Shown here in pieces: positions 2,362 through 21,391 of a stretch of 23,035 nucleotides of DNA; position 1 is the stretch's first letter; every line of letters starts with the position of its first letter. The notes under the pieces are model-generated. The model was not told the origin of the DNA. It did no database searches and saw nothing but the letters and a program-made list of their open reading frames with translations. The stretch comes from a virus, in the IMG/VR virus record IMGVR_UViG_3300036800_000539, positions 1 to 23,035 of that record; one strand, written 5' to 3'. The position numbers were made by a program, and so were the translations under genes.

Positions 2362-2542
2362 CCAGGTTGCCCAGGCAATCATCGATTCCGCAAAAGTTGA
2401 AGTCGCCTTGCTGAAGACCATTGGCGGCAGCAACGTCGGAACGGACTTCCTCTCGGTTCCCGAGGAGTCGCGTGAGCTGCCAAAGATCGTCGAAGCAAAC
2501 AAGGTTGAACCGCGCAGACTCGCAGCCCGCGGCGCTGCCTGA
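2255..2542 (+). CDS. small conserved phage protein next to HNH genes
   Basis: A 95-residue helical protein. Its pattern KVTDLRNHLFETLEALKD followed by KRALAISQVAQAIIDSAKVE is one I recognise from small unnamed proteins in phage accessory regions. The molecular function is unknown. The start is a GTG at 2255, with AGGA about eight bases upstream. It overlaps the end of the HNH gene by 107 bp in a different frame, which is unusual. Because this frame has good protein character, the C-terminal tail of the HNH protein (low-complexity Gly/Ser/Gln) is the weaker of the two readings. The stop overlaps the next ATG as TGATG. Confidence 0.75.
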   Translation: MPKNKVTDLRNHLFETLEALKDKDSPMEVKRALAISQVAQAIIDSAKVEVALLKTIGGSNVGTDFLSVPEESRELPKIVEANKVEPRRLAARGAA

Positions 2543-3033
2543 TGCCGATCCGTCGCGAGCTGCGCCACTTCTATCGGGGTCCGGCCTGGCGGGCCAAGCG
2601 CCGCTTCGTGCTCGATCGTGCTGGCGACAAGTGCGAGCGATGCGGCAAACCCAACCGGCAGCTGATATGGGTGCTGCGCGATGGCACCGGCCGCTGGGCG
2701 CTGTATTGGGAAGGCGGAACGCGAAACCTCACGCTGGGCCGGTGGCGGGATCAGTCGGGCGCGGAGATCTCCGCCCCGGCAACGCAGTCCGATCCGCGCG
2801 GCGTCTGGCCGTTCCTGATTACCTGCGTCCTCACCGTCGCCCACCTGAATCAGGTCGCCGGCGACGATCGCGACGACAATCTTGCGGCACTCTGCCAGCG
2901 CTGCCACCTCGCCCACGACGCGCGAGCGCACGTCGCCAGTGCCCGCAGGACGCGCGCCGCTCGCGTCGGGCAGGGGTGGCTATCTCCGGAAATTGAACAG
3001 GCGGGAGAACCGCAGGGAGTAACGAACGCATGA
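2542..3033 (+). CDS. HNH endonuclease with zinc-binding cysteines
   Basis: A 163-residue protein with a complete-looking HNH/zinc core split by an insertion. C31-x2-C34 (KCERCGK) and C118-x2-C121 (LCQRCHLAHD) are the likely zinc ligands. H101 (LTVAHLNQ), N113 (DDNLAALC) and H122 supply the H-N-H residues. Between them, residues about 40-95 are an insertion rich in Trp and Gly. Unlike the upstream HNH gene, no key residue appears to be missing. HNH nucleases are common near terminase genes in phages and can assist packaging or act as homing nucleases. Here it lies about 1.3 kb before the small-terminase-like gene. Start and stop both overlap neighbours by a few bases. Confidence 0.85.
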   Translation: MPIRRELRHFYRGPAWRAKRRFVLDRAGDKCERCGKPNRQLIWVLRDGTGRWALYWEGGTRNLTLGRWRDQSGAEISAPATQSDPRGVWPFLITCVLTVAHLNQVAGDDRDDNLAALCQRCHLAHDARAHVASARRTRAARVGQGWLSPEIEQAGEPQGVTNA

Positions 3034-3338: not shown

Positions 3339-3818
3339 GTGGCAGACAGTACGGCCGCATCGCGCCCAGCGAAGGCGCAAAGGGGGACCCCGGGGCCCAC
3401 TTCTTCGAAGACAACCGGCGCCCAATCTGGGCGCCCGGACGGCGTTGCCCCGATCGCCGCTGCCGACGTCGATGAACTCGGCCGGCTCGAAGCCGAGCTT
3501 GCCCCGTTCAAAGCGAAAATAAGTCGGCGCGACGCGATCAGGAAGAATCTGCGCGAGGCCTATTCGAAGGCCGACGCACTGCAGCAATTCGAACTCAAAG
3601 GCGAAAAATTCGTCGCGATTATCGGTCCCCGCGGCAACGAACGCATCATCAATTTCAAGGAACTGGCGAAAAAGATCGGCATCAAGGCCTACGCGGCGTT
3701 CGCCACATGCACCCTGAAAGCGCTCGGTGAACACGTTCCCGAGGATGTGGCCAGCCAGGTGGTCAGCTACGAGTACTCCGGGCCGCGTGACATCACGCTT
3801 GTTCCGAGGGCCGAATGA
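3339..3818 (+). CDS. conserved-looking phage protein, unknown function
   Basis: A 159-residue protein. Residues 1-45 are low-complexity (Ala, Gly, Pro, Ser, Thr). Residues about 45-70 form a charged helix (DELGRLEAELAPFKAKI). The C-terminal 85 residues look folded, with strands FVAIIGPRGNERIINFKELA and a conserved-looking end VASQVVSYEYSGPRDITLVP. I remember similar unnamed phage proteins but no function. The start is GTG at 3339, since no in-frame ATG lies near the folded part. It has no Shine-Dalgarno and lies just downstream of a promoter. Several DNA palindromes fall within its first 100 bp. Its stop overlaps the LuxR-type gene (ATGA), so the two are probably expressed together. Confidence 0.75.
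   Translation: MADSTAASRPAKAQRGTPGPTSSKTTGAQSGRPDGVAPIAAADVDELGRLEAELAPFKAKISRRDAIRKNLREAYSKADALQQFELKGEKFVAIIGPRGNERIINFKELAKKIGIKAYAAFATCTLKALGEHVPEDVASQVVSYEYSGPRDITLVPRAE
3388..3435. other. cluster of perfect palindromes near transcript 5' end
   Basis: Three perfect inverted repeats lie within 48 bp: CCCCGGGG (3388-3395), TCTTCGAAGA (3402-3411), and GGCGCCCA-ATC-TGGGCGCC (3417-3435, an 8-bp stem with a 3-nt loop). They fall in the low-complexity N-terminal codons of the gene starting at 3339, about 50-100 bases after the inferred transcription start. They could be operator sites or an RNA hairpin that attenuates transcription or translation. The function is inferred only. Confidence 0.5.
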
Positions 3819-4243
3819 CAGCCACGCTCCCGCTCGCCGGCTCAGGCCTCTCGGGCCGCGAGCGGCAGCTGGTGCGTGAGATCGCCTCGGGAGCGAAAAA
3901 CAAGGACATCGCCGAACGGATGCACTTGACGGTGGGCACTGTGAAGGTGTACGTCTCGCGCCTCTTCGGCAAGCTTGGCCTCGCGAACCGGGGCGAACTC
4001 GTCACCTGGGGACGCCGGCACGCTCTCGACCTCGCCGCAATGGACCCGAAGCTCACGCTCGGGCTCAAGGCCGGCCAGCAGGGATTTCACAACGGACGGC
4101 CGGTGGAACTCATCCAGTTGGTGCAACGGGAGCTTCCTCAGGAGGTCTGGCTCGTGCAGCCGCTCTTCGTTGAAGGGCCACGCAGCGAGGAAACCTTCCA
4201 CGCCGGCGATCGCATGACACCCATTCACTCCGGCCGGGTTTGA
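3815..4243 (+). CDS. LuxR/GerE-type helix-turn-helix regulator
   Basis: A 142-residue DNA-binding protein. Residues about 12-66 are a clear LuxR-type HTH: LSGRERQLVREIASGAKNKD, then IAERMHLTVGTVKVYVSRLF and GKLGLANRGELVTW. They include the usual LSxRERxL opening, the NKDIAE turn and the VGTVKxYVSxLFxKLG recognition helix. There is no receiver or autoinducer domain before it. A C-terminal extension of about 65 residues (79-142) is of unknown type. It overlaps the preceding gene by ATGA and lies directly before the terminase/sigma block. It may switch phage transcription, or serve as a terminase-associated DNA-binding protein. Confidence 0.85.
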   Translation: MTATLPLAGSGLSGRERQLVREIASGAKNKDIAERMHLTVGTVKVYVSRLFGKLGLANRGELVTWGRRHALDLAAMDPKLTLGLKAGQQGFHNGRPVELIQLVQRELPQEVWLVQPLFVEGPRSEETFHAGDRMTPIHSGRV

Positions 4244-4398: not shown

Positions 4399-4700
4399 CC
4401 GGAGGCACGGTCTGCCGGTATCACGGCGGCGCGGCTCCGCAGGTGCAGAAGAAAGCCCGCGAGCGGCTGCTCGAGCTTGTGGATCCCGCGCTGGCCATGC
4501 TTTCGCGCATTCTCAACCGGGAGTTCGATGAAGGTGAGCAGCCCCGCACGGTCGAGCTCAACGCGGTGCGCGACATCCTCAACCGCACGAAGTTCGGCGC
4601 GGAAGAAGAAGCCGCCGGCGACGACGGCACCGCGACGTGGGAAGACTTCCTCGCAAAGTACGGCGAGCGTACATCCACTGCGAAGACACCTGTGGCATAG
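4338..4700 (+). CDS. small-terminase-like Cys/His protein with no canonical start
   Basis: The frame encodes a motif I recognise from phage proteins placed just before the large terminase: KCTAKSKQSGKRCGNHAIAG followed by GTVCRYHGGAAPQV, with C4, C15, C26 and H29 as a likely zinc site. A helical part follows (RERLLELVDPALAMLSRIL, then NAVRDILNRTKFG), ending in an acidic tail. It probably recognises phage DNA for packaging. No ATG, GTG or TTG precedes the Cys motif in frame. The first is GTG at 4443, which would remove it. AAGGAG at 4324-4329 is 8 bases before an in-frame ACG (4338), so I place a tentative ACG start there. A frameshift from the 4252 frame is the alternative. Confidence 0.65.
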   Translation, partial: TPKCTAKSKQSGKRCGNHAIAGGTVCRYHGGAAPQVQKKARERLLELVDPALAMLSRILNREFDEGEQPRTVELNAVRDILNRTKFGAEEEAAGDDGTATWEDFLAKYGERTSTAKTPVA

Positions 4701-4782
4701 CTATCTGTCCCAATGCGCAGCCCGTGCGGGCCGCATAGGCAACTGGCGGCGCTACCACCGCGACCGCGCGATCGAGGATCAG

Positions 4783-5286
4783 ATGGCGATCGTGCGGCGG
4801 ATCGCGAAGGAACAGTCGCGGGTATTTGTTCACGTGCAGATCGAGGACCTCGAGCAGCAGGGTTATGTCGGATTGCTCGAAGCCGCGCGACGGTACGACC
4901 CAGCAGCGGGATCGTTCGGCGCGTTCGCATACTTCCGGATCCGCGGAGCGATCGTCGACGCGCACAAGCGGCGCCGGTGGCGCGAAGAGATGCTCGAGTC
5001 GCTGCAGGCGATCGCGGCTGCGCATGACGGGTGGCTGCCGCCGTCGATCGCAACGTGTCCCCTTCCCCGCCCGGACGAGCTGGCGGCTCGCGGCCAGATG
5101 GCGGCCAAGCTTGCGAACGCGCTGGGGGCACTGGCAAGCGAGGATGCCGAACTTCTCAGGGCATGGGCTGAGGGCGCGCCGATCCGCGAACAGTGCGAGA
5201 TCAGCGGCATGAGCCCGAACTATACGCGGGACCGGGTTGCGCAGCTGATCGGACGGGTGCGTGCCCTGATTGAAAGGACCCTGTGA
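4783..5286 (+). CDS. phage-encoded sigma-70 family factor, FliA-like
   Basis: A 167-residue sigma factor that would direct RNA polymerase to phage promoters. Region 2 is clear at residues about 19-62: DLEQQGYVGLLEAARRYDP, then FGAFAYFRIRGAIVDAHKR. The RIRGAIVD signature is typical of the FliA/SigB/WhiG class. Region 4 is a helix-turn-helix at about 117-165 (LASEDAELLRAWAEGAPIRE, then ISGMSPNYTRDRVAQLIGRV). Region 3 is very short. ATG 4783 has GAGGA five bases upstream. However, the frame is open and protein-like further back (LWHSYLSQCAARAGRIGNWR), so a CTG start near 4690 is possible. It lies between the small-terminase-like and large terminase genes and may recognise the GTCGAATA sites. Confidence 0.85.
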   Translation: MAIVRRIAKEQSRVFVHVQIEDLEQQGYVGLLEAARRYDPAAGSFGAFAYFRIRGAIVDAHKRRRWREEMLESLQAIAAAHDGWLPPSIATCPLPRPDELAARGQMAAKLANALGALASEDAELLRAWAEGAPIREQCEISGMSPNYTRDRVAQLIGRVRALIERTL

Positions 5287-5513
5287 GCCACTCTTTCGGA
5301 GGCACGAAACCTACGCTGTGGCGGATATTCCCGCAGGTTTTGCCCGACTACTTTTTCTGGGAGACAAGCCGCCGCCGGTGGCTGACTTTTCTTTTGCCTG
5401 AGGTTCTCGAGGACCTGCAGTTCCACCCGCCTGCGCGGCAGCAGTTGCAGGGCATCGTCGCACGCGAGCTCGCGGCCGCGCTTCCGCTTGGCGTCGGCGT
5501 TAAGCTCCGATGA
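5283..5513 (+). CDS. small hypothetical protein before the large terminase
   Basis: A 76-residue protein of unknown function, starting with GTG inside the stop of the sigma gene and ending inside the ATG of the large terminase. It is rich in aromatics and Pro (LWRIFPQVLPDYFFWETSRR), with a helical C-terminal half (ARQQLQGIVARELAAALPLG). There is no signal peptide or membrane segment that I would trust. Its position between the sigma factor and terminase, with overlaps on both sides, supports it as a real coupled gene, perhaps linked to packaging. Confidence 0.65.
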   Translation: MSHSFGGTKPTLWRIFPQVLPDYFFWETSRRRWLTFLLPEVLEDLQFHPPARQQLQGIVARELAAALPLGVGVKLR

Positions 5514-7279
5514 AGCCGCTGTCACAGTGCAGCGATCAGGAACTGAAGCTCATCTACGACAATTTCAGCAACCATGCGGCGTTCTGCCGCGAGTCGCTGA
5601 TCGTCGAAACCGAAGACAAACGCATTGTGCCGATGATCCTTTCCCCGGGACAGGTGCGCCTCCGGGAAGCCATCCGCCGGCAGCGTGAGAGACAACGGCC
5701 GGTCCGGATCATCTACTTGAAGTCCCGCCGCATTCAGGCCACCACCGGCACCGCGGCGGAGTTCTTCCGTGAAACGGCGTTTCGCGCCGGCGTCCACACC
5801 GTCGTACTGGGTCACGATGCCAAAAGCACGGAAAACATTTTCGGAATCTATCGTCGCTTCCACGAGAACTACCGCCCGTTCGCCGGCCGGATCGTTTTGC
5901 CGAACCCGTCGAAGAAACACCCGGCCCCGCTCTCGGACCGCGTGTACTACGAGTACGGCGGCGATCCGGAGTCGAGCTTCATTCAGGTCCATACAGCCGG
6001 GTCCACGAATTTCGGCCGAAGCTTTCGCGTCACGAACGTGCACTTCTCCGAGTTCCCCTACTACGACAACCCGGGCGCGATCCTGAGCTCGGTGATGTCG
6101 GCGGTGCCGAAGCTGCCGGATACGTGCGCCGTGATCGAGGGGACCGCGAAAACCATCGCGGACAAGTTCCACAAGATGTGGCAGGACGCCATCGATCCGT
6201 CCTCTGACAGCGAATGGATCGGGGTGTTCATGGGCTGGTGGGAGCATCCGGCCAACCGCATGCCGCCCGCGATCGCGATCGAGCAGTTTGCCAACTCCAT
6301 CACCAGAGAGGAGCGCGAGCTGATGGAGCGGTATCGCCTGGACCTTCAGCAGCTGTGCTGGCGGCGGTGGACGATTGCCAACGATTTCTCCGGAGATCTC
6401 GCGAGCTTCAAACGCGAGCACCCTGCGACGCCTGAAGAGGCCTTCAGCGCAAACAGCCGCAACCGCTTCAGCGTGCCGAACATTCAGCGCATGCCCATTC
6501 AGCGCGATCCGATGGTCGGTGAACTGGCGATCGAGGACGTCGGGATCGAGAAGCGGATCGTATTCCATCCGAACCCGCAGACCGGCGGCGCGCTGCGCGT
6601 TTGGCGCAGACCCGAGAAGGGACGCCTGTACGCAGTCGGCGCCGACTGCGCCCAAGGGATCGACGTGGGCGAGGGCCAGGGCTCTTCGGATCCGGATTAC
6701 TCGGTGGCGCAGGTCTTCGATCGCGATACCGGCGAGCAGGCGGCGGTCCTGCGGGCACGCATGATGCCTGGCGAGACCGGCAGGTATATCGCGGCCCTCG
6801 GCCGCTGGTACAACATGGCGCAGATTTGCGGGGAGCGTAACCCGGGCGGCGGCGGGATCTCGATGCTGGAGGCGATCATCAACTCGGATTACCCGTCCGG
6901 GCTGCTGTACCATCGCTCGGTGACGCCGGATCAGGAACCGCAGGTCCGCGGCGACCGGCTCGGCTGGGACACGTCCGGGGTTTCCCGGCCGCAACTGCTG
7001 TCGATGCTCGATGAAGCGATCCGCCTCGACGCGCTCCACGTCCACTGCCACATTACCCAGTCGGAGCTGCTGACATTCATCATTAAGCCGACCGGCAAGG
7101 CCGAGGCCCAGGCTGGGTGCCATGACGACTGCGTGATCGCGCTGGCGCTGGTCATGGTGGTCTGCGAGCGTATGCCGCGGCCGCTGCGCCTGCCGGACGG
7201 CGCGGCTCGGCCGGAGGTGACGCGATACGGGCGCGGACCGCAGGGTGACGGACGGGGGACGATTGTGAGGCGACGATAA
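5510..7279 (+). CDS. terL: terminase large subunit (ATPase and nuclease)
   Basis: A 589-residue packaging motor protein that pumps DNA through the portal and cuts the concatemer. The N-terminal ATPase contains a Walker A-like motif at residues 70-79 (LKSRRIQATTG) of the phage type lacking the standard GxGKT. The Walker B/catalytic acid is VTNVHFSE, with E181. A coupling-type motif follows near 206-213 (AVIEGTAK). The C-terminal RNase H-like nuclease has D379 (AVGADCAQG), E442 (CGERNPGGGG) and D539/D540 (CHDDCVIALAL) as metal ligands. The length is normal for the family. The ATG overlaps the previous stop. The last 35 residues are a basic Arg/Gly/Pro tail. Confidence 0.95.
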   Translation: MKPLSQCSDQELKLIYDNFSNHAAFCRESLIVETEDKRIVPMILSPGQVRLREAIRRQRERQRPVRIIYLKSRRIQATTGTAAEFFRETAFRAGVHTVVLGHDAKSTENIFGIYRRFHENYRPFAGRIVLPNPSKKHPAPLSDRVYYEYGGDPESSFIQVHTAGSTNFGRSFRVTNVHFSEFPYYDNPGAILSSVMSAVPKLPDTCAVIEGTAKTIADKFHKMWQDAIDPSSDSEWIGVFMGWWEHPANRMPPAIAIEQFANSITREERELMERYRLDLQQLCWRRWTIANDFSGDLASFKREHPATPEEAFSANSRNRFSVPNIQRMPIQRDPMVGELAIEDVGIEKRIVFHPNPQTGGALRVWRRPEKGRLYAVGADCAQGIDVGEGQGSSDPDYSVAQVFDRDTGEQAAVLRARMMPGETGRYIAALGRWYNMAQICGERNPGGGGISMLEAIINSDYPSGLLYHRSVTPDQEPQVRGDRLGWDTSGVSRPQLLSMLDEAIRLDALHVHCHITQSELLTFIIKPTGKAEAQAGCHDDCVIALALVMVVCERMPRPLRLPDGAARPEVTRYGRGPQGDGRGTIVRRR

Positions 7280-7287
7280 GCGGTGAC

Positions 7288-7295
7288 GTCGAATA
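7288..7295 (+). promoter_or_regulatory. GTCGAATA junction motif
   Basis: A perfect GTCGAATA lies nine bases after the large terminase stop and 8 bases before ATG 7304. No Shine-Dalgarno is present; the spacer AACTCCTC is pyrimidine-rich. It is one of a family of identical sites at gene starts in this window, interpreted as a -10-like element for leaderless transcription. Confidence 0.6.
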
Positions 7296-7303
7296 AACTC
7301 CTC

Positions 7304-7504
7304 ATGGTGATCAGGATGCTGGCTTGGTGCGCATACGCCTACTGCGTGTTTTGGATCTCGGTTCGGTGGGGTGGTGGACGTCGACTTTGCAGCGGTCGGC
7401 TCCGGACTCGGATACGCCGGTCTAGTACACACGCACATTCCGCGCTGGGTCTTCAGGCTGCTCTACTGGATCGGCGATCGCCGCCGCCGGCGTGCGTCGA
7501 ATAA
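7304..7504 (+). CDS. small membrane protein, frameshifted after residue ~22
   Basis: The first 22 residues (MVIRMLAWCAYAYCVFWISV) form a convincing hydrophobic segment. After the G-rich run at 7367-7376 this frame continues as Arg/Ser-rich sequence that looks like an out-of-frame translation. The +1 frame from 7371 encodes a natural-looking continuation. I start at ATG 7304 rather than the in-frame GTG at 7283 because the GTCGAATA site lies 8 bases before 7304. It is probably one gene of about 70 residues broken by a one-base change or sequencing error, or read by frameshifting. A role as a holin-like or inner-membrane protein is possible but unproven. Confidence 0.5.
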   Translation: MVIRMLAWCAYAYCVFWISVRWGGGRRLCSGRLRTRIRRSSTHAHSALGLQAALLDRRSPPPACVE

Positions 7505-7581: not shown

Positions 7582-7589
7582 GTCGAATT
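7582..7589 (+). promoter_or_regulatory. GTCGAATT motif before the portal GTG
   Basis: GTCGAATT differs by one base from the repeated GTCGAATA and lies 8 bases before the portal GTG at 7598. The portal has no Shine-Dalgarno. The spacing equals that of the site at 7288, which supports a shared function. Confidence 0.5.
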
Positions 7590-7597
7590 CCCCGGTA

Positions 7598-9841
7598 GTG
7601 ACGCCACAGCCGCCCATTCCGGACACCGACGATCAGGAACCTGAAGACAGGCCAACGCAGGAGCAGTACCAGCTCAAACTGCCGCAGTCGGAGCTCTCGC
7701 GGCTCGGAACCCGCGTTCTGACCGACTACCGCTCCGCCCTCGCCGATCACAACCGGCGCATTCAGCGTTTCCGCGAGCTTTACCGGCGCTGGCGGGCGAT
7801 GACAGACACGCCCAACCAGGGCGAGGAAACCGCCTCGAACTTCCCGGTGCCTTTCGTGCGCTGGAACATCTTCACAAAGTGGGCCAAGGAAATCGACGCC
7901 CTCTTCGGTGATGACGCCGAAATCGTGGCCGTTCCCGTGGGCCCGAGCGACTACCGCAAGGACAAGAAGATCGGGCGGTACATGACCTGGCGGGTCTTCA
8001 ATTCCATGAAGCTGCTGGGCCCGATATGCGAGTTCGTTCTCCGCAAGCTGGTCTTCGGCCGATCGGTGGCGTATTCGCCGTGGAAGCGCGAAACCTACGA
8101 AGTCAAAGGCGAGGAGGTCGTCGATTACGAAGGCCCGGGCTTTGAGCCACTTTGGCCTGACGACATCATCGTGCCGGCGGAAGACGTGCGGTCGATCCAC
8201 GAGTTCAGCTTCGCAATCCGGCGCTACCGGGTCACGCCTGACCAGCTGCTCCGCGGCGAAGAAGAAGGCCGTTACCAGAACATCAAAAAGAACTGGCATA
8301 CGATTGTGAACCTCGCGCTGCACGGACAGCAGCGGGATTTTGAAGGCGAAGACATCAAGCTCGAAAAGGATAACGCGGAAGGCGTGCTGTACCAGCGTCC
8401 GCTCTCGTCGGGCGAGTGGGTGATGGTGCTCGAATGGTACGGCCGCTGGCGCCCGCTGAAAAAGGGCGTCGGCAAATCGGGCGGCGGCAGCGCGAAGGAC
8501 GCCGGCGAGTACGACTTCGACAAGCGCGAGATGAAGCAGCGCGATTTCGTGGTGCGCTACCTGTACGACCTGAATATGGTGATCGGCGTTCAGGACCTCG
8601 AAACTCTGTACCCGCACATGCGGCAACGCCGGCCTTTCGTTGAGTCGTCCATGCTCAAGGCCGGAGAATACTGGTCGCCTGGAATGGCCGAGATGCTCCT
8701 CGACATCGAAGACGAGCTGCGCGCCAACCATAACCAGACCACCGAAGCGGCGCAGCTCTCCATCACCCCGACCGTGATGTACCGGCCGGCGTCGGGCTTC
8801 AACCCCGAAACCTTCAGGATGGAACCCGGGATGGCTATCCCGGTGGACGATCCGTCGCGCGACGTGAAGGAGCTCAAGATTACCGCGAACATCGAGGCGG
8901 CAACATGGAAAGAACAGGTCATGCTTGGCTACGGCGAAAAGCTGACGGGCCTGTCCGACATGCAGCTGGGCCGCCAGAGCGATCGCCCGAACGCGCCACG
9001 CACGGCAACGCAGACCGTGAAGCTGCTCGAAGAGGGAAACGTCCGGATCTCGCTCGACACCAAAGTGCTCCAGGAGGACATGCGATTTGTGCTGGAGCAC
9101 TTCTGGGAGCTCGAGTACGAGTTTTCGCCCGATGAAACGTTCTTCCGCGTGACCGAGGAAGACGCCGACGGCCTGTTCCCGGTGAATAGCGGAGGGTCGA
9201 TTCTCAGCTACCAGGAGCGCGACGGCCGCTACGATTTCCGGCTTCAGTTTGCGAACTCGGTCTGGTCAAAAGAGGTCAAGAAGCAGCAGGCACTGGCGCG
9301 CTATCAGCTTGACCTGCAGAACCCGCTGATCGCGCAGAATCCCCGGGCGCTGTGGCAGGTTACCAGGGACGCGCACGACGCGCTGGGGGATCCGAACTTT
9401 GCCGAGCTGGTGCCAGAGCCCCCGGCTCCGGATCTTCCCGTGGATCCGCGCGAGGAGTGGAACCGGCTCCTGCAGGGCGAAGACATCCACGTCAACCCGA
9501 TGGATAACGACCAACTGCACCTGCAGAGGCACATGCAGGACCTCAAAAAGGCGGAGGCGGATACGCAATGCGATCCGGACGCGATCCAGAAACTTGTCGC
9601 GCACTACCGGCAGCACATCCTGCAGCTGCAGCAAAAGAAAATCAACCAGGCGATTGTCGAGCAGGCGGTGAACGCCGTCGCGGGAATCGCCGGCGGCCAG
9701 CTTGCGTTCCCGCACGGGCTGTTCGGCGGATCCCGGCCGGTGAAGAAAGGTGACGCCCTGCCTACCGGCCTGCAGGGCAATCCGGCCCAAACGGGCCCGG
9801 CGGTCTTCTCCCAGCATCCGGAGATCCAGCATGAAGAATGA
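7598..9841 (+). CDS. portal protein, P22-like size
   Basis: A 747-residue head portal, the ring through which DNA enters and leaves the capsid and onto which the terminase docks. The length is close to the P22 gp1 class (about 725 residues). Recognisable features are the N-terminal helical region with RFRELYRRWRAMTD (57-70), the ASNFPVPFVRWNIFTKW segment (79-95), a wing/clip part with FEPLWPDDIIVPAEDVRSIH, and a stem region ending TGLSDMQLGRQSDRPNAPRT. The C-terminal helices (HLQRHMQDLKKAEAD, HYRQHILQLQQKKINQ) could form a barrel. The start is GTG, without a ribosome site, after GTCGAATT. The next gene overlaps its last bases. Confidence 0.9.
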   Translation: MTPQPPIPDTDDQEPEDRPTQEQYQLKLPQSELSRLGTRVLTDYRSALADHNRRIQRFRELYRRWRAMTDTPNQGEETASNFPVPFVRWNIFTKWAKEIDALFGDDAEIVAVPVGPSDYRKDKKIGRYMTWRVFNSMKLLGPICEFVLRKLVFGRSVAYSPWKRETYEVKGEEVVDYEGPGFEPLWPDDIIVPAEDVRSIHEFSFAIRRYRVTPDQLLRGEEEGRYQNIKKNWHTIVNLALHGQQRDFEGEDIKLEKDNAEGVLYQRPLSSGEWVMVLEWYGRWRPLKKGVGKSGGGSAKDAGEYDFDKREMKQRDFVVRYLYDLNMVIGVQDLETLYPHMRQRRPFVESSMLKAGEYWSPGMAEMLLDIEDELRANHNQTTEAAQLSITPTVMYRPASGFNPETFRMEPGMAIPVDDPSRDVKELKITANIEAATWKEQVMLGYGEKLTGLSDMQLGRQSDRPNAPRTATQTVKLLEEGNVRISLDTKVLQEDMRFVLEHFWELEYEFSPDETFFRVTEEDADGLFPVNSGGSILSYQERDGRYDFRLQFANSVWSKEVKKQQALARYQLDLQNPLIAQNPRALWQVTRDAHDALGDPNFAELVPEPPAPDLPVDPREEWNRLLQGEDIHVNPMDNDQLHLQRHMQDLKKAEADTQCDPDAIQKLVAHYRQHILQLQQKKINQAIVEQAVNAVAGIAGGQLAFPHGLFGGSRPVKKGDALPTGLQGNPAQTGPAVFSQHPEIQHEE

Positions 9842-10115
9842 GGCCGTTCCCGATGCGACCGGGTTCGCCGTTCCGGAGCCAGACGACATCCGGGAAGCGC
9901 GAAACATCGTCGGGCGGCTGACGGAAATGATCGACGCCGGCGATGCCGAGGAGATCTCGGTTTACGTCGCGCGGCGGGACGGTACCTACCTGACCATGCA
10001 GAACAGAAACAACGGACGCCATGAGGACGCCGGCCGCATTCTGGAGCTCGCGCTTTTGCGCCTCGGCTTTGTCCAGGTCGAGACGGTGCGGGACATGGTG
10101 GACGACGTCGAATAA
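9831..10115 (+). CDS. small hypothetical phage protein
   Basis: A 94-residue protein of unknown function. ATG 9831 overlaps the portal stop and has GGAG about eight bases upstream. The acidic N-terminus (PEPDDIREARNIVGRLTEMI) is followed by a strand-rich middle (AEEISVYVARRDGTYLTMQN) and a helical end (GRILELALLRLGFVQVETVR). It is a likely portal-coupled accessory protein. Its last codons, Val-Glu-stop, are read from the GTCGAATAA of the next gene's upstream motif, so the DNA does double duty. Confidence 0.6.
   Translation: MKNEAVPDATGFAVPEPDDIREARNIVGRLTEMIDAGDAEEISVYVARRDGTYLTMQNRNNGRHEDAGRILELALLRLGFVQVETVRDMVDDVE
10107..10114 (+). promoter_or_regulatory. GTCGAATA motif, 7 bases before ATG 10122
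   Basis: A perfect GTCGAATA with spacer ATCCTGC (7 bases) to the ATG at 10122. No Shine-Dalgarno. It overlaps the final codons and stop of the preceding gene, so it is kept as DNA sequence in a coding context as well. Confidence 0.6.
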
Positions 10116-10920: not shown

Positions 10921-10928
10921 GTCGAATA
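10921..10928 (+). promoter_or_regulatory. GTCGAATA motif, 7 bases before ATG 10936
   Basis: A perfect GTCGAATA with spacer TACCGGA to ATG 10936 (a second ATG follows at 10942). It lies entirely between genes, five bases after a stop codon. No Shine-Dalgarno is present. Confidence 0.6.
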
Positions 10929-11793: not shown

Positions 11794-11801
11794 GTCGAAT
11801 A
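11794..11801 (+). promoter_or_regulatory. GTCGAATA motif, 7 bases before ATG 11809
   Basis: A perfect GTCGAATA with spacer GCCCTGC (7 bases) to ATG 11809, starting one base after a stop codon. No Shine-Dalgarno. It stands before the lipoprotein that begins the lysis pair. Confidence 0.6.
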
Positions 11802-12392: not shown

Positions 12393-12776
12393 ATGTGGCT
12401 CTACAAACAGTCGACCGGAGAATTGTTCGCCGGCGCGGAAGAAGGCGTCTCGATCGGCGTACTCGCCGGCACGGGTTACGCGGGCTTCGGCGCCGGAAAG
12501 AATAACCCGGAACTGGAGGCGGTGCACTTACTCGGACCGCTCCCGAAGGGCCTTTACCGGTTCGGCTCTCCCGAGGCCTCGCCGAAGCTGGGGCCGCTCG
12601 CAATCCCGCTGATTCCGGATGACTCCAACGAGATGTTCGGGCGTTCCGCGTTCTTTCTTCACGCCGATTCGATCACGCACCCGGGCGAGGCCTCCGAAGG
12701 CTGCATCGTCATGGCGCGCGATGTACGCCAGCGCGTTTTTGCGAGCGCCGACAAGGACCTCCGGGTAATCGCATGA
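12393..12776 (+). CDS. L,D-transpeptidase-like (DUF2778/Tlde1-type) peptidoglycan enzyme
   Basis: A 127-residue protein with the pattern of DUF2778 enzymes, a YkuD-like L,D-transpeptidase/carboxypeptidase group that includes the Tlde1 toxins. Visible are YAGFGAGKNNPE (29-40), GPLPKGLYRFG (48-58) and the active-site block H90-x-D92 ... S101-x-G103-C104 (FLHADSITHPGEASEGCIVM), with C104 the likely nucleophile. In a phage it probably serves as an endolysin that cuts peptide stems of the cell wall. There is no signal peptide, so export would rely on a holin. The start has no clear ribosome site. The stop overlaps the next gene. Confidence 0.8.
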   Translation: MWLYKQSTGELFAGAEEGVSIGVLAGTGYAGFGAGKNNPELEAVHLLGPLPKGLYRFGSPEASPKLGPLAIPLIPDDSNEMFGRSAFFLHADSITHPGEASEGCIVMARDVRQRVFASADKDLRVIA

Positions 12777-13946: not shown

Positions 13947-14864
13947 ATGGCATCCCGCAAACATCCCGTTCCCGTCGGCCGAAAGGCCGACCCAGTTCAG
14001 CCGATCAACGATCAGGTCCTCGCGGACCGCGAGGCGCGGATCGAAAACGACCGGCGCCAAATCCCCGATCTCGGGCTCGGGCTCGAGGAACCGGAACCCG
14101 CCACGGCGGCCGAGTTCATCGACGAGTTCGACAAGAAAGCATTCGGCGAGGATGTACCGACCTACTCGCGTATTGTGTACGGACCGGATCCGCTGTTCGA
14201 TCAGTGCCCGTCAATGCGCGCCGCGATCGAGAAGATCGGGCTGCATGACTATGCCGAAGTGGTTTTCCGCGAAATCGTGAAGAACCGCGAGACGGCATTC
14301 AGCGACCAGATCCTGCAGCGCGGCATCGCGGCCGGGATCAACAAGTTCGGCGTCGAGCAGGTTGCAGACGCTTTCCGGAAGCGGATTCTGAGGATTCCCA
14401 GCCGCAGAGTCGAATACGAAGTGGACCGCGACTTCGACTCGGAAGTTGTGGGATCGCGCGTTCTCGACGAGGCCGTCGCGCGGTACGGGCAGCCTGGCAT
14501 GGCATACAAGTTTCTCTCCGATCGCGTCATCGCACAGCTCGGAATGCGCGGCTACGAAATCGTGAAGAACGAGGCCGGCGAACCGGTGAAGGTCGGCTCG
14601 CTGATGATGGGCGAGATCCCGCTCCGGGTCGCGGAACGCCGCCGCCGGCACAACGCCGAACAGGCGCGCGAAGCGATCGACCGTGAAGTCGAAAAGTTTC
14701 AGGACGAGGCCGAACGCCTCGCCCAGCAGTCAAGGCATGCGGGCGTGGGCCCGCTCCTGCGCGATGAGCTCATGACCGCGCATGCTTCCGAATCCAAAGC
14801 CGCAGTGGGCCAGACCCGTGCCGCCGGATTCCATCTCGAACAGGAGAACCTAACCCGTGTCTAA
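13947..14864 (+). CDS. hypothetical structural-module protein
   Basis: A 305-residue protein of unknown function located between scaffold and decoration genes. The N-terminal 50 residues are extended and charged, with a Leu/Gly/Glu/Pro stretch (DLGLGLEEPEPATA). The middle is helical (IEKIGLHDYAEVVFREIVKN, then GINKFGVEQVADAFRKRIL). A second half contains ERRRRHNAEQAREAIDREVE, a likely coiled coil. It could be a minor head protein or an assembly factor. GGGAG lies about 13 bases before ATG 13947. A GTCGAATA copy inside it (14409) is read as Val-Glu-Tyr and is not at a gene start. Confidence 0.65.
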   Translation: MASRKHPVPVGRKADPVQPINDQVLADREARIENDRRQIPDLGLGLEEPEPATAAEFIDEFDKKAFGEDVPTYSRIVYGPDPLFDQCPSMRAAIEKIGLHDYAEVVFREIVKNRETAFSDQILQRGIAAGINKFGVEQVADAFRKRILRIPSRRVEYEVDRDFDSEVVGSRVLDEAVARYGQPGMAYKFLSDRVIAQLGMRGYEIVKNEAGEPVKVGSLMMGEIPLRVAERRRRHNAEQAREAIDREVEKFQDEAERLAQQSRHAGVGPLLRDELMTAHASESKAAVGQTRAAGFHLEQENLTRV

Positions 14865-18780: not shown

Positions 18781-19070
18781 CGGCGCCCGGCCCTCTCTGG
18801 TATACGGCCACCCTCGTGAACGCCGTAAACAGCGGCTCGGCCGTGATCGCTTCGTTTTCCGTGGCCGATGCATCCAGCGGGGCACATAACGGACTCGCGC
18901 TCGATGGGGTGACCCCCCAGCAGTACCTGGACGTTCAGCTCGATCCGGCGGATCCCATGAGATCCATAGCGAACGCACTCATGACGCTTCTGATCGCGGA
19001 ATACGGCGGGATCGAAGCCCTGCTCGCGGCGTGCATTTCACAGCGGGTCCCTTTCAAATTCCTCAGCTAG
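18771..19070 (+). CDS. small hypothetical structural-module protein
   Basis: A 99-residue protein starting with GTG inside the end of the preceding gene. The N-terminal half is beta-rich (TATLVNAVNSGSAVIASFSV). The C-terminal half is helical (RSIANALMTLLIAEYGGIEA, then LLAACISQRVPFKF). GGAGG lies about twelve bases upstream. Its stop TAG shares two bases with the next GTCGAATA motif. Function unknown; it may be a fibre or connector accessory protein. Confidence 0.55.
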   Translation: MQLTAPGPLWYTATLVNAVNSGSAVIASFSVADASSGAHNGLALDGVTPQQYLDVQLDPADPMRSIANALMTLLIAEYGGIEALLAACISQRVPFKFLS

Positions 19071-19077
19071 TCGAATA
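19070..19077 (+). promoter_or_regulatory. GTCGAATA motif, 7 bases before ATG 19085
   Basis: A perfect GTCGAATA with spacer GCTCCTC (7 bases) to ATG 19085. No Shine-Dalgarno. It stands at the boundary between the fibre-like genes and the adaptor genes and would give the adaptor block its own leaderless transcript. Confidence 0.6.
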
Positions 19078-21383: not shown

Positions 21384-21391
21384 GTCGAATC
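21384..21391 (+). promoter_or_regulatory. GTCGAATC variant motif upstream of gene at 21413
   Basis: GTCGAATC differs by one base from the repeated 8-mer. It lies between genes, but the next ATG (21413) is 21 bases away and has its own strong GAGAGAGGAAAA ribosome site. If it is a promoter, this transcript would have a short leader. Confidence 0.35.

Follow-up and report, generated by a model that had tools for sequence, protein, structure and literature searches.

A sigma factor gene and a candidate single-box late promoter word at start codons in a group of uncultured phages

Introduction

FliA (sigma-28) recognizes promoters with the consensus -35 TAAAGTTT and -10 GCCGATAA, and at the aer promoter sigma-28 transcription begins 6 bp past the -10 octamer (PMC2859248). 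The late promoters of phage T4 consist of a single 8-bp box without a -35 element (PMC2988020). In Deinococcus, -10 motifs located approximately 6-7 bp before open reading frames (ORFs) drive leaderless genes (PMC12340547).

The locus described here resembles each of these systems in part. It lies in the whole IMG/VR record IMGVR_UViG_3300036800_000539 (23,035 bases, hereafter the window), a tailed-phage fragment in which PHROGs identifies genes for the terminase and portal as well as major head and tail-like genes. The original prediction for this DNA was that a FliA-like phage sigma factor encoded at 4783-5286 may read a set of sites with the sequence GTCGAATA. We compared the sigma protein, the word and its position in the window, in related phages and in genomes of the presumed host order.

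Results

Three plus-strand genes define the region:

4690..5286, plus strand: sigma-70 family gene (approximately 198 aa with a start at CTG 4690; 167 aa, truncated, from ATG 4783)
5510..7279, plus strand: large terminase subunit (PHROG 2, E 4e-20), the first of the late genes to follow the sigma gene
7598..9841, plus strand: portal gene (PHROGs), GTG start at 7598

As judged from its sequence, the product of the first gene is a small sigma-70 family protein, with core RNA polymerase binding and initiation as predicted functions. Positions 4783-5286 matched Pfam Sigma70_r2 (E 1.3e-12, passing the cut-off), and PHROGs annotates them as 'RNA polymerase sigma factor'. The sigma-2 domain contains the RIRGAIVD signature, as had been predicted, and Lys93-Arg94 in region 2.4, the Lys93 codon being 4966-4968. 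The helix-turn-helix of region 4, also predicted, gave only a weak Pfam match (HTH_23, E 0.015, below the cut-off), but a sigma-4-like C-terminus was found in the family profile and in an AlphaFold model. This model, made with 40 family members (mean pLDDT 90, pTM 0.53), is confident for the domains and not for their mutual arrangement, and its C-terminus is modelled as four helices resembling sigma-4. When the family profile was compared with solved structures (PDB), FliA entries ranked first (E 7e-31), with sigma-2 and sigma-4 aligned and sigma-3 skipped; the spacing between the two aligned parts is approximately 33 residues here versus approximately 80 in FliA. Structure searches with the model returned sigma-28 and other sigma factors, and comparison with phage isolates gave weak partial matches only. 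The layout is sigma-2, a short linker and a sigma-4-like C-terminus. Thus, the description of the protein as FliA-like holds for region 2 and for its best solved relatives, but not for the domain content, which lacks sigma-3.

The gene is a real sigma gene, but the predicted interval omits a conserved N-terminus. The frame 5' of ATG 4783 encodes a stretch that is kept in homologues, reading LWHSY...NWRRYHRDRAIEDQ here (NWRRYHRD) and LWDSY...WRRWHRE in most of them. Because of this conserved stretch, and since no in-frame ATG, GTG or TTG occurs between TTG 4477 and ATG 4783, the protein likely starts at about CTG 4690.

Several other features of the window were observed. A LuxR/GerE-type HTH protein (3815-4243, E 4e-15) is a possible second regulator located before the late genes. 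Two HNH endonuclease-like genes (1585-2361 and 2542-3033) lie upstream of the packaging genes. Positions 739-1015, within the ORF 621-1382, contain 11.5 copies of a 24-bp repeat that encodes LSPDQIAW and matches the Pfam ALTTAQ repeat (E 5e-42). In the late region, a protein with a Tlde1 domain (12393-12776, Pfam E 6e-11) is possibly a cell-wall enzyme.

The sigma protein alone, used as a query against viral contigs, gave no matches, and relatives were therefore collected through terminase searches, and later through a sigma alignment; most of the related contigs are fragments. A sigma-like ORF was present upstream of the large terminase gene (terL) in approximately 70 of approximately 95 loci found through the terminase, and among related uncultured phages dozens show the same arrangement of sigma gene and word. 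The better matches in bacterial genome collections were mostly to Bryobacterales/Acidobacteria metagenome-assembled genomes (MAGs), and the phage host group appears to be soil Acidobacteria (Bryobacterales).

Individual relatives showed further peculiarities. Contig L028 carries two sigma-like ORFs (6347-6997 and 9100-9999) upstream of one terminase, the first with Pfam regions 2 and 4. The late region of L008 contains a second, ECF-like, sigma-looking ORF at approximately 6221-6697, with a weak sigma-2 match at 6302-6499 (E 2e-4); the ORF as cut gave no Pfam match. In L137, L140, L141 and L144 the terminase is only approximately 40% alike, the portal approximately 70% alike and the sigma related; the histories of the terminase and of the sigma-portal part are thus mixed.

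The copies of the word in the window, with distances counted from the T of GTCGAAT to the start codon, are as follows:

7288..7295, plus strand: GTCGAATA; GTCGAAT 9 nt before ATG 7304 (ORF 7304-7504)
7496..7503, plus strand: GTCGAATA; no start codon 8-10 nt 3', overlaps the stop of ORF 7304-7504
7582..7588, plus strand: GTCGAAT(T), 9 nt before portal GTG 7598
10107..10114, plus strand: GTCGAATA; GTCGAAT 8 nt before ATG 10122
10921..10928, plus strand: GTCGAATA; GTCGAAT 8 nt before ATG 10936
11794..11801, plus strand: GTCGAATA; GTCGAAT 8 nt before ATG 11809
14409..14416, plus strand: GTCGAATA; within gene 13947-14864, no start codon 3'
19070..19077, plus strand: GTCGAATA; GTCGAAT 8 nt before ATG 19085 (tail-like gene)
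21384..21390, plus strand: GTCGAAT 22 nt before ATG 21413, with the Shine-Dalgarno-like AGAGAGGA in between

All seven copies of GTCGAATA are on the plus strand, compared with 0.43 expected, and none of 100 shuffles reached seven. Five of them stand 8-9 nt before an ATG, and a sixth start, the portal GTG, is preceded by GTCGAATT. The spacing rule is obeyed at the starts 7304, 7598, 10122, 10936, 11809 and 19085, and not at the sites 7496 and 14409, the latter probably being a chance copy. The GTCGAAT at 21384 is a candidate promoter with a short leader. As had been predicted, the sigma gene is upstream of the sites, every one of which lies 3' of it. The motif itself also proved real; its principal feature, the strict spacing between GTCGAAT and the start codon, was absent from that prediction.

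In the relatives, the general form is GTCGAAT, 8 nt (rarely 9-10), then ATG or GTG. The portal gene begins directly behind the box in approximately 17 of these phages. An earlier test on 7 loci placed 33 of 45 copies at 8-9 nt (binomial, ~1e-39), and a set of 23 loci contained 132 copies on the plus strand versus 17 on the minus strand. For 19 relatives, in which the start codon was required to begin an ORF with a minimum of 35 codons, 76 of the 109 plus-strand copies were found 8-10 nt before ATG or GTG, with one such case on the minus strand; the distance tally for these relatives was 62 at exactly 8 nt, 6 at 9 and 9 at 10. One-mismatch neighbours of GTCGAAT showed little or no enrichment in the same set. 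Two other patterns were discarded: the extended pattern GTCGAATANCTCCTCATG, whose two matches were both chance occurrences inside a recA-like gene, and CTCCTC as an anti-Shine-Dalgarno word, which was not conserved in relatives.

The preceding gene often terminates inside the box (GTC GAA TAA/TAG), for example at 7502-7504 and 10113-10115 of the window, which leaves neighbouring genes packed around the box. Such overlap would be expected if the word were kept by descent, or as a packaging, processing or recombination signal, and were close to start codons only as a result of gene packing. However, it is the spacing to the start codon that is fixed, the spacing to the previous stop is variable, the box precedes unrelated genes in different phages, and its flanks are not conserved. 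We consider this explanation very improbable.

The fixed spacing could alternatively come from a translation signal. The word stands exactly at the Shine-Dalgarno position, and the host 16S rRNA (16S genes L122-L129) contains ATTCGAC, to which GTCGAAT is exactly reverse-complementary. The word might therefore take the place of the Shine-Dalgarno sequence as an mRNA initiation element, pairing for instance with helix 31 of the 16S rRNA, and have nothing to do with transcription. The details of the sites speak against this. The 16S match predicts T at the eighth base, but the constant part in relatives is GTCGAAT, followed by A in 50 of 88 sites, with T the rarest base. Phages with Arg-Arg in region 2.4 of the sigma (RR phages; see below) use G[GC]CGAAT, the complement of which was not found inside host 16S, and pairing as the main reading was rejected on these two grounds. 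Helix 31 is itself paired in the ribosome, which also counts against it. Host genes do not use the word, and the motif variant tracks the DNA-binding region of the sigma. In addition, three or four intergenic copies lie approximately 17-22 nt upstream of starts preceded by a Shine-Dalgarno sequence of their own (four plus-strand boxes, including that at 21384 of the window, versus 0.9 expected for random positions), which hints at a promoter more than at an RNA signal. We judge the match to 16S rRNA to be a coincidence and an initiation element of this kind to be improbable.

As a promoter element or operator, the word could be read by another factor, with the sigma serving other promoters. 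A host sigma is one candidate. However, 100 genomes of the host order contained 184 matches to GTCGAATA-N7-ATG in total, or ~0.3 per Mb, versus 4 in the 23-kb window. Host-wide use was thus rejected, the host genomes being without the word as a signal before genes. The second HTH regulator of the phage, the LuxR-type protein, is another candidate, but the first seven relatives gave a match to it only in L010, a contig without the word. The sigma, on the other hand, is a conserved regulator adjoining terL across the family. Every motif-rich contig that reaches far enough upstream carries the sigma gene; those without a full one (L008, L013, L052 and L069) start only at the terminase or within it, and at the contig edge of L008 the C-terminus of the sigma is visible. 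We looked for relatives that have the motif but no sigma gene, which would argue against the link, and found none other than such truncated contigs. The proposed co-occurrence was borne out, the motif sites in related phages lying downstream of the sigma gene with few exceptions. In L144, with its divergent terminase and related sigma and portal, the box is kept and also precedes the terminase.

A further indication comes from region 2.4. Sigma proteins with Lys-Arg (KR) at this position are found with GTCGAAT, and Arg-Arg (RR) proteins usually with G[GC]CGAAT. This pairing of residue and box holds for 33 of the 38 phages on the terminase tree. The tree provides 3-5 supported independent contrasts, of which the motif follows the residue in approximately three and almost never the reverse (p ~0.25, for a residue that was picked after looking at the data). 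Residue and box thus tend to go together, a lead with too few contrasts for significance. There are exceptions: the Lys-type sigma of L058, L061, L067 and L141 is accompanied by few or no sites and that of L028 by one, and L065 and L066 each combine an Arg sigma with a single GTCGAAT site. No clear motif accompanies the sigma of L010 or of the NR phages L064 and L068. A search for replacement motifs in the motif-negative clades gave none that was convincing except G[GC]CGAAT in RR phages.

The few phages that have a Lys-type sigma and lack the word are compatible with a different reader, as is the fact that we infer the binding of the word by the sigma. Since the word is absent before host genes, and since its variants track the sigma subtype with independent contrasts almost never opposite, we regard another reader as unlikely. 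The proposed link between sigma and motif is supported in part, by co-occurrence and by the position of the sites; the FliA-type form of the promoter is not.

That form had been proposed despite the lack of a -35 box in the window, and likewise none emerged among 87 sites, whose best upstream words were no more frequent than in random windows. The column information from -50 to -1 was at most 0.2 bit. One 4-mer, CGCG, exceeded the random controls in one subset of the search, but not in the full set. The box itself is identical to the FliA -10 GCCGATAA at 5 of 8 positions. Because no -35 element was present in the 87 sites, they look like single-box promoters of the T4 late kind and not like FliA-type promoters.

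Discussion

Taken together, we think it probable that the word, at its fixed distance from the start codon, acts as a single-box late promoter read by the phage sigma. In this model, the sigma, together with host core RNA polymerase, would recognize the single word GTCGAAT(A) through region 2, without a -35 element. With the word at the -10 position, transcription would start some 6-8 nt beyond the octamer, which places it on the start codon or within approximately 2 nt of it. The octamer is usually separated from the start codon by seven bases, and a sigma-28 transcript starts 6 bp after its octamer; the promoter reading therefore predicts a transcript start at the start codon or 1-2 nt before it. 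Late messages would consequently be leaderless or nearly leaderless, and the late genes would be switched on from several internal promoters. One point against the model is that the C-terminus is sigma-4-like, yet no -35 partner was found in the 87 sites.

We lean slightly towards a broader proposal as well, namely that phages of uncultured Acidobacteria possess their own sigma and a single-box promoter fixed to the start codon as a private, leaderless late channel, in which region 2.4 and the second base of the box have co-evolved. If this is true, the genomes of uncultured soil phages across a large group would contain a late-promoter code open to direct reading. The natural series of sigma factors and boxes in this group would allow the role of region 2.4 in specificity to be examined where no -35 element takes part, and a phage sigma factor would here be coupled with leaderless messages.

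Sigma and word are conserved together, in what would be a form of the known phage late sigma systems. One close parallel is T4 gp55 with the late promoters TATAAATA, which similarly combine a small phage sigma-70 family protein with a single 8-bp -10 box, no -35 element and many late promoters (PMC2988020). Here, however, the box is different and its spacing is tied to the start codon, region 2 is FliA-like, and a sigma-4-like C-terminus is present, whereas gp55 has only sigma-2 similarity. FliA/sigma-28, which belongs to the group 3 sigma factors with WhiG, is the best solved match over sigma-2 and sigma-4, shares the RxRGAxxD signature, and has a -10 octamer that likewise starts with G and holds CGA. 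In contrast to FliA, the phage protein has no sigma-3, and its sites have no -35 TAAAGTTT and carry the box GTCGAATA instead of GCCGATAA. The RinA/Ltr-type late regulators of Gram-positive phages, such as phi13 Ltr, activate one late promoter via repeats upstream of a host sigma-A promoter, unlike the present arrangement of a sigma factor with many single-box sites. Finally, the leaderless genes of Deinococcus-Thermus also carry a -10 box at a fixed 6-7 bp from the ORF and lack a Shine-Dalgarno sequence and, usually, a -35 element (PMC12340547), but theirs is the housekeeping TANNNT box of the host, whereas here a phage-specific word is accompanied by a phage sigma.
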